Assembly: GCF_015665295.1 (NCBI RefSeq)
Contig: NZ_JADFAJ010000016.1
Coordinates: forward strand, 62,001 to 126,000
Source of the DNA: Maricaulis sp.
Lineage (GTDB): Bacteria; Pseudomonadota; Alphaproteobacteria; Caulobacterales; Maricaulaceae
Direction of reading: 5' to 3'
DNA: 64,000 bases
The notes below the pieces were generated by a model. The model saw only the letters and a program-made list of their open reading frames with translations. It had not been told where the DNA came from and ran no database searches. This document shows, in pieces, positions 55,177 to 64,000 of the stretch (positions are counted from its first letter, which is position 1; the number at the start of each line of letters is the position of its first letter). Position numbers and translations under genes: made by a program.

Positions 55177-55251
55177 TGGAGCGGGCGATGAGATTCGAAC
55201 TCACGACATTCACCTTGGCAAGGTGACGCTCTACCCCTGAGCTACGCCCGC
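55177..55251 (-). tRNA. tRNA-Gly (anticodon GCC)
   Basis: The minus-strand sequence folds as a tRNA. The acceptor stem GCGGGCG/CGCCCGC is followed by D-arm GCTC-AGGGGTA-GAGC. The anticodon arm TCACC/GGTGA has loop TTGCCAA (anticodon GCC), and the T-arm loop is TTCGAAT. Discriminator T at 55180 and an encoded CCA end (55177-55179) complete it. Confidence 0.95.
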
Positions 55252-61875: not shown

Positions 61876-61973
61876 CCGGGCACCGGCTTCCGGCTCACCT
61901 GATCGTGACTGGCCGTGCTGTCTCCTGCCTGCAAGTTTCTCGCGGCCCGGGGGGCTTGAATTCGGGGAGATCC

Positions 61974-62849
61974 ATGAGAGAGATTGTATTGGCCGCCGGG
62001 CTTGTATTGGCAGGGTCCACTGCCCAGGCGCAGGACGTACCGCAGGCGACCGCCCTCTGGCGCAGCGAGAATTTTGCCCGCCCGGAAGCGGTCCACGTCC
62101 CGCCGGGCAGTGACTGGGCCTATATCGGCAACCAGTCCGGAGACGGTGAGGAAACAGACCCGCCGGGACAGGGCTATGTCTCCCGCCTCAATCTGGTGAC
62201 CGGTGAATGGCAGGCCCGCTGGGCAGCCGGATTTGATGATCCGCTGGGCATCGTCTCACAGGGTGATCGTCTCTACATGATCGATGCGGGCCGGCATGTG
62301 GTCATGCTCGACCTGGAAAGCGGCATCGAACTCGGTCGCTGGACGATCAGCCAGGACAATGTCTTTCTCAATGACATCGCGATCGAGCCGGATGGCCGCC
62401 TCTGGGTGACCGATACGCGCGGCGGTGCGCTGTTTGATCTTGTCGGAGGTCGCTGGCGGCAATTGTTCGAAGGCGAGCCCTTCACCGGCGCCAATGGTGT
62501 CGAATATGCCGATGGCTGGATCTATGTTGTCTGCTCCGGCGGCGAGGGCAATCTGATCCGGATTCATCCCGACACGCTTGAAACAACACTACTGCTCGAG
62601 GACGAGGGTTCGCTCGACGGCGTCGTGACTGACGGTCGGGGCGGACTGGTGCTGAGCGATTTGCGCGGCCGATTGCTGCACTGGTCGGAAGCAGGCGGCG
62701 TGACCGTGCTGGACGGATTTGAGGGCGAGGACATCATGCTCAACTCGATCGGCGGCACACCGGACGGACGGTTCATTTTCGCGCCGCACTGGCGCAGTTC
62801 GCAATTGTCGGCCTATGAGATCAGCTACCCGCCATCACCGGGCGGCTGA
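61974..62849 (+). CDS. Exported SMP-30/gluconolactonase-like beta-propeller protein
   Basis: A 291-residue protein with signal peptide (MREIVLAAGLVLAGSTAQAQ). The body has repeating propeller blades, seen in repeated strand pairs such as GSDWAYIGNQSGDG, VFLNDIAIEPDGRLWVTDTRGG, GANGVEYADGWIYVV, and LDGVVTDGRGGLVLSDLRGRL. It resembles SMP-30/gluconolactonase and strictosidine-synthase-like proteins, in which a metal site is formed by Asn/Asp/Glu residues. Substrate unknown. GGGGAGA before ATG 61974 fixes the start. It sits between ftsK and lolA. Confidence 0.8.
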   Translation: MREIVLAAGLVLAGSTAQAQDVPQATALWRSENFARPEAVHVPPGSDWAYIGNQSGDGEETDPPGQGYVSRLNLVTGEWQARWAAGFDDPLGIVSQGDRLYMIDAGRHVVMLDLESGIELGRWTISQDNVFLNDIAIEPDGRLWVTDTRGGALFDLVGGRWRQLFEGEPFTGANGVEYADGWIYVVCSGGEGNLIRIHPDTLETTLLLEDEGSLDGVVTDGRGGLVLSDLRGRLLHWSEAGGVTVLDGFEGEDIMLNSIGGTPDGRFIFAPHWRSSQLSAYEISYPPSPGG

Positions 62850-62925: not shown

Positions 62926-63591
62926 ATGATCACTCTGCTTGCCACCCTCGCCCTGTTTCAGGCGACCGACCCTGCACCTGCCAGCGAACCGCCTGTCACA
63001 GAGCCTGTGGCCACGGCCGAAGCTGCCGCAGCGGTTGAACTCGACCGCGAGCGGGTCCTGTCAGGCATCAATGACTATCTCAACTCGGTCGACACACTGC
63101 GTTCGCGCTTCATCCAGATCGCGCCGGACGGATCCATGGCGGAGGGCAATCTGGCGCTCGCCCGGCCGGGCCGACTGCGCCTCGATTATGATGATCCCAA
63201 TCCGCTGCGCATTATCGCAGACGGAACCACAGTTGCCGTCGAGGACCAGGCGCTTGAGACGGTGGACCGGATTCCGCTGCGATCAACCCCGCTCTGGTGG
63301 CTTCTCAAGCCGGAAATCGACATCGCCGAAGATGCTGCCATCGTCTCGATGGAGCGGGAATTCGGCTTTCTCTACCTCACCCTGCGCGACCCGTCCGAAG
63401 AGATGGAGGGCGAGATCATGTTCGTTTTCGCCGAGCCAAGCTATGAATTGCGCGAGTGGTATGTCACGGATGCACTTGGGGAAATTACCCGAGTCACGCT
63501 CTCCGGTGTTCAATCCGGCGAAGCACTTAGCCCGCGTCTGTTTGTGATCCCAGAGCCGGAGAGCCGGCGCGATTCCCGGCGCGGCCGCTAA
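62926..63591 (+). CDS. lolA: Outer-membrane lipoprotein carrier family protein LolA
   Basis: A 221-residue LolA-family periplasmic carrier that moves lipoproteins from LolCDE to the outer membrane. SGINDYLNSVDTLRSRFIQIAPDGSMAEGNLALARPGRLRLDYDDPNPLRIIADG is the family core (given in parts), followed by DRIPLRSTPLWWLLKPEIDI. The N-terminus (MITLLATLALFQATDPAPASE) is a short signal-like region; an acidic/Pro-rich segment follows. Position downstream of ftsK fits other alphaproteobacteria. Gene symbol is by family. Confidence 0.87.
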   Translation: MITLLATLALFQATDPAPASEPPVTEPVATAEAAAAVELDRERVLSGINDYLNSVDTLRSRFIQIAPDGSMAEGNLALARPGRLRLDYDDPNPLRIIADGTTVAVEDQALETVDRIPLRSTPLWWLLKPEIDIAEDAAIVSMEREFGFLYLTLRDPSEEMEGEIMFVFAEPSYELREWYVTDALGEITRVTLSGVQSGEALSPRLFVIPEPESRRDSRRGR

Positions 63592-63676
63592 AAGGTTGCG
63601 GCTTTTTGGACACACGCAATTTCTTTCTCATTTTTTATTTGTAAAAGACTGGACGCTGTGGCGTTATTGTAACGCT

Positions 63677-63830
63677 GACTGAGAGGCAATGGATCGGCGT
63701 CGTCCCCCCGCTTGCGGATCCTTATCTCAGTCGCGCCGGATTGATCCCCTCCCGGCGCTGCGCTCTTACAGACAAGCGCATGGCTTTGCGCCCGGTCTCC
63801 TCCCCCTCGAGACCGGGCGCAATTCGTTTT
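63677..63830 (+). ncRNA. Four-hairpin small RNA candidate ending in an intrinsic terminator
   Basis: Four back-to-back hairpins. HP1: GACTGAGA (63677-63684)/TCTCAGTC (63725-63732), with inner GGATC/GATCC (63691-63695, 63717-63721) and a loop containing CGTCCCCCCGC. HP2: GCGCCGG (63733-63739)/CCGGCGC (63752-63758), loop containing GATCCCCTC. HP3: TGCGCT (63759-63764)/AGCGCA (63775-63780). HP4: GCGCCCGGTCTC (63788-63799)/GAGACCGGGCGC (63809-63820), loop CTCCCCCTC, then AATTCGTTTT as terminator. HP1-HP3 are contiguous. Three loops are C/U-rich and could pair with ribosome binding sites. The start point is unknown. Confidence 0.55.
63788..63830 (+). terminator. Intrinsic terminator (HP4 of the small-RNA candidate)
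   Basis: A perfect 12-base stem with a 9-base loop followed by AATTCGTTTT. It could end the small RNA and any read-through from lolA. Confidence 0.7.
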
Positions 63831-63913
63831 GCCCCCTGGCCACCGCGACCCGTTCCCCGCTTCTCGCATCTACACCCCTGTTGCGCGGCGGGATTGAAGG
63901 TTAAATACGGTCC

Positions 63914-64000
63914 ATGCAGTTCCACGATGACCCCGACGACGCGGACATTCCGCGCCTGCTCGAAGAAATCCCGCTTCTCTACAAGGCCAAGGCCTTCGCG
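63914..64000 (+). CDS. Unidentified gene, cut by the window end
   Basis: The frame from ATG 63914 is open to the last base. Twenty-nine residues are visible, starting MQFHDDPDDADIPRLLEEIP and continuing LLYKAKAFA. The start is acidic and soluble, and no ribosome site is obvious (GAAGG lies about 17 bases upstream). The fragment is too short to name. Confidence 0.45.
   Translation, partial: MQFHDDPDDADIPRLLEEIPLLYKAKAFA

Follow-up and report, generated by a model that had tools for sequence, protein, structure and literature searches.

A probable RusT-type small RNA downstream of lolA in Maricaulis and its relatives across Alphaproteobacteria

The Maricaulis genome examined here encodes a covarying four-stem-loop RNA at the locus of the Caulobacter small RNA (sRNA) RusT, and this RNA is recognised by a model of Caulobacteraceae type. 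It lies within what we call the window, the whole 64,000-nucleotide stretch of DNA that was analysed, and the stretch it occupies is a conserved RNA gene that is not explained by chance. We consider it very likely that this gene, near positions 63676-63830 on the forward strand and about 150 nt long, is the Maricaulis RusT-type sRNA, an identification that follows from the shared locus, the architecture, the seed in stem-loop 2 (SL2), the best match of the Caulobacteraceae-type model, the covariation, and the exposed loops.

Structure and upstream region of the RNA

The MFE fold of positions 63677-63845 reaches -80 kcal/mol, compared to -56.4 +/- 4.0 for shuffled sequences (z -5.97, with 0 of 200 shuffles as good), and four stem-loops are predicted within 63677-63830, the last of them a terminator. 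This confirms the four consecutive hairpins of the original prediction, which had described them as perfect and as joined with zero or near-zero gaps. SL1, SL2, and SL3 abut directly with zero bases at their junctions in the MFE fold. SL1 itself is not a single perfect hairpin, its 8-bp outer stem being separated by an internal loop from an inner stem that is imperfect. SL1 (63677-63732, +) contains covarying helix 1 and carries the loop block CCCCCCGCU at 63704-63712, and SL2 (63733-63758, +) contains covarying helix 2, its loop being the part that matches the target-pairing loop of RusT. SL3 (63759-63780, +) is a short GCGC...GCGC hairpin whose arms recur in many rows of the class-wide alignment described below. 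SL4 (63786-63830, +), which contains covarying helix 3, is an intrinsic terminator with a long stem at approximately 63786-63822 and UUUU at 63827-63830; its U-tract is weak in the species of the window (AAUUCGUUUU), while many relatives have longer T-runs. A simple terminator scan omitted SL4, as its 9-nt loop and fewer than 5 T beside the stem fall outside the scan rules. All three C/U-rich loops that had originally been quoted, those of SL1, SL2, and the terminator, are present in the sequence.

A search of Rfam 15 found no family reaching its gathering score at the RNA, and the sole gathering-score match in the window is a tRNA gene (55180-55251, -). No second copy of the RNA was found in its own genome, where the next DNA match has an E value of 1.29.

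The RNA is preceded by a putative promoter (63636-63676, +), an AT-rich region with -35/-10-like character that recurs upstream of the relatives and in which we recognise ATTTGTAA at 63637-63644, TGTGGC at 63657-63662, and a -10-like TTATTG at 63664-63669. The motif TGTG[GT]C occurs upstream in 25 of 62 homologues, against a mean of 1.5 and a maximum of 6 in shuffled sequences, and since the shuffles ignore relatedness we attach no probability to this excess. A consensus promoter scan listed nothing upstream of the RNA, and the available text of PMC9731502, in which we sought an NtrX motif, yielded none.

Distribution and covariation

LolA was found in 56 of the 59 genomes of the window's family, and GGCGTCGTCCCCCCGCT, with at most 3 changes, follows lolA in 12 of the 30 family loci examined, the window's own included. 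A model built from those 12 loci (R1), which adds loci L023 and L033, matched 32 of 385 genomes of the class at an E value of at most 0.001 and 96 of 150 genomes of the order at an E value of at most 0.1, the latter count including chance matches. Two R1 matches (L230 and L236) were counted as chance because they have no gene context of the lolA/xthA type, and no such context was seen at L060, L061, L063, or L065-L068 either. We then use an alignment of 44 class-wide sequences (A5), 34 rows of which came from a pattern scan, and a model built from it (R3). R3 matched 51 of the 385 class genomes at an E value of at most 0.001; in a draw from the phylum it matched 28 of 299 genomes, of which the 7 that do not belong to the class reach at most 35.4 bits, and 39 of the 385 class genomes, under 20 family labels, score above this background. 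Named genomes among the matches listed include Maricaulis maris, M. alexandrii, M. salignorans, M. parjimensis, Hyphobacterium indicum, Aquisalinus luteolus, Parvibaculum, Parvularculaceae, and others, and four listed names from other phyla look like chance; the pattern scan of named genomes gives a spread that is at least this wide. Judged from sequence matches, the RNA family is spread widely over Alphaproteobacteria, far beyond Caulobacteraceae.

We note that one genome, G819 (family f25), has four R3 matches of 28-45 bits at different places, of which one (L315) has no lolA nearby and could represent a repeat or a chance match.

The stems of A5 show extensive compensatory change, in that both partners have changed with pairing kept in 23 of 25 pairs, and 96.2% of cells pair. 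None of 500 shuffles reached any of five covariation measures, and sliding the partners lowered pairing to 35-48%. Both-side changes were found in all 7 counted pairs of helix 1 (SL1), in 5 of 6 pairs of helix 2 (SL2), where 100% of cells are paired, and in 11 of 12 pairs of helix 3 (SL4), and the pattern did not select on these stems, apart from some loosely specified positions in the 3' arm of SL2. The covariance check attached to the original prediction was thus strongly positive, and conserved, covarying stems point to an sRNA gene after lolA, as had been proposed.

The loops are still more uniform. CCCCCCGCU in SL1 and CCCCU in SL2 are invariant in A5 and AUCCCCUCC in SL2 is nearly so, a fixity that is partly due to selection, since most of these letters were required by the pattern scan that supplied 34 of the 44 rows. 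R1 matches obtained without the pattern often share the loops (L041-L047, L049-L054, L057, and L059), and two others (L056 and L058) have a different SL1 loop. The terminator loop CTCCCCCTC is not conserved across the rows of A5, so that of the three loops first singled out, those of SL1 and SL2 are conserved class-wide and the third is not. In 44 of 44 MFE folds the SL1 C-run is at least 50% unpaired and the SL2 CCCCUMC at least 70% unpaired, which agrees with the idea that C/U-rich loops are exposed and could pair with G-rich regions around translation starts.

Relationship to Caulobacter RusT

As described in the available text of PMC11005374, RusT (CCNA_R0199) is a 118-nt sRNA encoded between lolA (CCNA_03820) and xth (CCNA_03821), with four stem-loops by probing, the terminator last, and Hfq bound at SL3. 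C53 in its SL2 loop pairs with TonB-dependent receptor (TBDR) and ompW mRNAs, acting in trans, and outer-membrane transporters are repressed; this iron-starvation RNA is induced by dipyridyl and zinc, has NtrX at its promoter, and has reported homologues in Caulobacteraceae (PMC11005374). The suggestion that the Maricaulis RNA is a new regulator therefore has to be given up in favour of a counterpart of RusT at the same locus (PMC11005374). A search of the literature on sRNAs at lolA/xthA and on follow-ups of RusT, covering the main texts of papers open without subscription, returned the RusT paper alone for this locus and, among the papers listed, none that describes the broader distribution or the loop of SL1.

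Among the loci we recovered, L225-L227 (and similarly L229), which we take as Caulobacter, fit RusT in both place and sequence. Counting 118 nt back from the T-run of L225-L227 puts a C at nt 53, in agreement with C53 of RusT, and nt 45-57 of these loci read GGAYCUAUCCCCU, with which the window counterpart, AUCCCCUCCC at 63744-63753, aligns. The RNA of the window shares with RusT its place after lolA and before xth on the same strand, its four stem-loops ending in a Rho-independent terminator (with the weak U-tract of Maricaulis), and its SL2 loop, which is UAUCCCCUCCC in Caulobacter-like loci. The two differ greatly in SL1, which is longer in Maricaulis and has the exposed CCCCCCGCU loop where Caulobacter types have CCGACCCGCU, and Maricaulis, unlike Caulobacter, has a hypothetical open reading frame (ORF) between the RNA and xthA. 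SL3 corresponds in RusT to the Hfq-binding stem-loop, a role known for Caulobacter only (available text of PMC11005374).

A model built from 10 loci of family f2, taken as Caulobacteraceae, with no Maricaulis row (R2), found the window RNA as its best match, at 27.7 bits, both in the window (where the next match has 12.1 bits) and in the whole genome (where the next match has 21.0 bits and the E value of 0.0036, on a rough calibration, is modest). R2 also detects the lolA-xthA RNA of genome G121 (59.8 bits), which R1 missed. The model is not fully blind, as its rows were located with R1, the window-family model, and some likeness is built in. This counts in favour of the least unlikely alternative, a separate sRNA that occupies the intergenic place of RusT and resembles it by convergence on C/U-rich anti-Shine-Dalgarno (anti-SD) loops and G+C-rich hairpins. 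Anti-SD loops arise easily, ar14 and ar7 score weakly on the window RNA by such likeness (E 0.015 and 0.019), and the chance matches of R3 outside the class, at up to 35.4 bits, exceed the 27.7 bits of R2, though these are different models. We nevertheless regard convergence as unlikely, given that strand, gene order, four-stem-loop layout, and SL2 loop are all shared with RusT, that R2 ranks the window RNA first genome-wide, and that intermediate loci (L239-L242) bridge the two types, carrying a CCGAC(6-8)GCUGUG loop in SL1 together with UUCCCCUCC in SL2.

Comparison with other sRNA families

Both ar14 (RF02344) and ar7 (RF02342) resemble the window RNA in having C/U-rich loops on stable hairpins and a terminator, but the scores are 23.6 bits for ar14 (E 0.015) against a gathering score of 58.8 and 22.0 bits for ar7 (E 0.019) against 60. 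We rejected kinship with these families, as RF02342, run against 372 genomes of the class, produced just 5 weak matches, with 0 above the cut-off and none in the window's genome. Four of the weak matches (L071-L074) look unlike the window RNA, and the fifth (L070) has C-rich hairpins. The term C-rich loop itself is reportedly used in the paper on GsrN of Caulobacter (PMC5869019).

Two further RNAs, CcnA and EcpR1, were considered for their loops and cell-cycle links. CcnA of Caulobacter has a CCCC loop that pairs with GGGG in mRNA leaders, but according to the available text of PMC8959179 it is a 182-nt RNA in the origin of replication that regulates ctrA and gcrA, and identity with it is ruled out by the locus, lolA-xthA versus origin of replication. 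EcpR1 of Sinorhizobium is similar to the window RNA in being a trans-acting sRNA whose conserved loop base-pairs at translation starts, but is described in the available text of PMC4414408 as having two stem-loops, a loop UCCGCCGCAUCU, and a position downstream of divK-pleD, and this different locus excludes identity.

Gene neighbourhood

The RNA begins approximately 85 nt past the stop of lolA (62926-63591, +; outer-membrane lipoprotein carrier, PF03548, E 5.4e-26) on the same strand. A pattern scan placed a terminator-like hairpin with a T-run (63580-63607, +) where lolA ends, ahead of the putative promoter of the RNA, which is no evidence alone because 1 was found against 1.1 expected in shuffled sequences. 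Downstream is the start of a conserved hypothetical ORF of 202 aa (63914-64000 in the window; L009:5915-6523, +), for which no Pfam family was found up to E 1 and no NCBIfam family above the cut-off, and then, beyond the window, xthA (L009:6556-7368; TIGR00633, E 6.2e-54). The order ftsK-lolA-[RNA]-(hypothetical)-xthA is conserved, and the placement of the ORF after the RNA recurs in relatives. Many families of Alphaproteobacteria have the 202-aa ORF in this position, with the RNA before it and xthA after it.

A further ORF (61905-62849, +) lies between ftsK and lolA and has no Pfam match at E 0.001; ORFs resembling it are found ahead of lolA in several relatives. It may be SMP30-like.

Across the matches listed from the named collection (75 matches, being 81 listed rows minus 6 second or opposite-strand rows), LolA lies at most 1.2 kb upstream in 52 of 75, and at least one of LolA, the hypothetical ORF, and XthA is where expected in 66 of 75, with many loci ending before one neighbour. 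Five of the 80 listed loci fall outside the 75; L093, L101, L115, and L127 were excluded as having names from other phyla and looking like chance, and L137 ends at the RNA. At least one neighbour was recognised in families f1, f2, f3, f6, f7, f12, f19, f42, f46, f63, and f93, and also in f118, f123, f125, f128, f130, f168, f175, f179, f180, and f181. None of the three was seen near the RNA matches L062 and L069 (f45), L327 and L329 (f89), and L330 (f166), and a LolA fragment approximately 1.5 kb upstream of L328 is the sole neighbour trace among the three f89 loci. The f45, f89, and f166 loci (L062:1501-1602, L069:1501-1640, L327, L329, and L330) have RNAs of several hairpins, with C-rich loops and a terminator of the GCGCCCG type, which may be different sRNAs with C-rich loops or copies that have moved.

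In many relatives the RNA immediately precedes the hypothetical ORF, a position that would also suit a cis-acting leader of that ORF or of xthA, such as a riboswitch or attenuator ending in a terminator. Four genomes of the window's family (G013 at L244, G014, G029, and G041) fit this reading, in that their RNA accompanies the ORF and xthA and is away from lolA. In the light of these four genomes we dropped an earlier idea, namely that the window's family had lost the RNA along with the hypothetical ORF. A cis-acting leader is nevertheless very unlikely, as the RNA is found with several arrangements of downstream genes. Hyphobacterium-type genomes keep it with no hypothetical ORF or XthA after it (L016-L018, and L125 with 3.7 kb downstream), and in Caulobacter types xthA follows directly. 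The ORF is at lolA in none of L022-L039, two of which (L023 and L033) retain the RNA without it (33.6 and 26.7 bits). The Caulobacter RNA, moreover, is trans-acting (available text of PMC11005374).

That the hairpins are a 3' untranslated or terminator region of lolA without separate function is scarcely credible despite the short distance, the same strand, and the intrinsic terminator at the end, as the loops are more conserved than the stems, the stems covary, a promoter-like conserved region lies upstream, lolA is 692-870 nt distant in L075, L105, and L145, the RNA is found away from lolA in G013, G014, G029, and G041, and an independent sRNA is known at this spot in Caulobacter; lolA read-through is unlikely for the same reasons of promoter, distance, and gene order.

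Proposed function and candidate targets

By analogy with RusT, the Maricaulis RNA would be transcribed from its own promoter upon disturbed iron homeostasis, under NtrYX control, and would be held by Hfq at SL3. The exposed SL2 loop would then pair with G-rich translation-start sites of transporter mRNAs and repress them. We propose in addition that SL1, with its CCCCCCGCU loop, may be a second binding site, a feature that is new here. An exposed C-tract in SL1 is present in many members of the family and seems to be shortened in Caulobacter types. A more speculative reading, which we put forward tentatively, is that Caulobacter RusT might derive by reduction from an ancient sRNA of Alphaproteobacteria in which the SL1 loop (CCCCCCGCU), and not SL2, is the main and most conserved recognition site and has a dedicated partner of its own, such as iron-uptake mRNAs or a protein.

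Exact sites for SL2 (GGGRGGGGAT) number 5 in the genome including the gene itself, compared to 0 for a reversed-pattern control. Of the four non-self sites, three are inside longer open frames and one is directly before a start codon. The latter is a candidate target, a start region complementary to the SL2 loop over 11 nt (L310:1495-1510), in which CGGGAGGGGAUUCCAUG precedes the ATG of a signal-peptide-like metallo-hydrolase (PF00753), a metallo-beta-lactamase-fold protein and not a TBDR. Exact sites for SL1 (AGCGGGGGGR) number 2 including the gene itself, and the sole non-self site falls within a FecCD-family transport permease gene (nt 76-85; PF01032), which itself follows a TBDR gene; with 8 sites for the reversed-pattern control there is no excess, and we treat this site as a lead only.

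A comparison of 20 TBDR starts with 38 control starts gave no significant preference for SL2 pairing. Pairing was somewhat better at TBDR starts (p = 0.10), with the same trend for a plain anti-SD control (p = 0.09), and the corresponding values were p = 0.10 for SL4 and p = 0.80 for SL1. These sets exclude 3 of 23 TBDR loci (L290, L297, and L302) with a predicted start that is cut off or doubtful and 3 of 41 control genes with no usable start.

Implications

Few sRNAs that act in trans are known whose conservation spans an entire class with the genomic place unchanged. The kind of RNA that RusT represents was already known; what is new is its reach past Caulobacteraceae and the exposed SL1 loop. 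A family whose members include Caulobacter types, Maricaulis, Parvibaculum, Parvularculaceae, and many uncultured families would provide a tractable case of sRNA evolution, in which a seed loop may be gained or lost while gene order is kept, and it points to a second pairing loop that has been invisible to work in Caulobacter.
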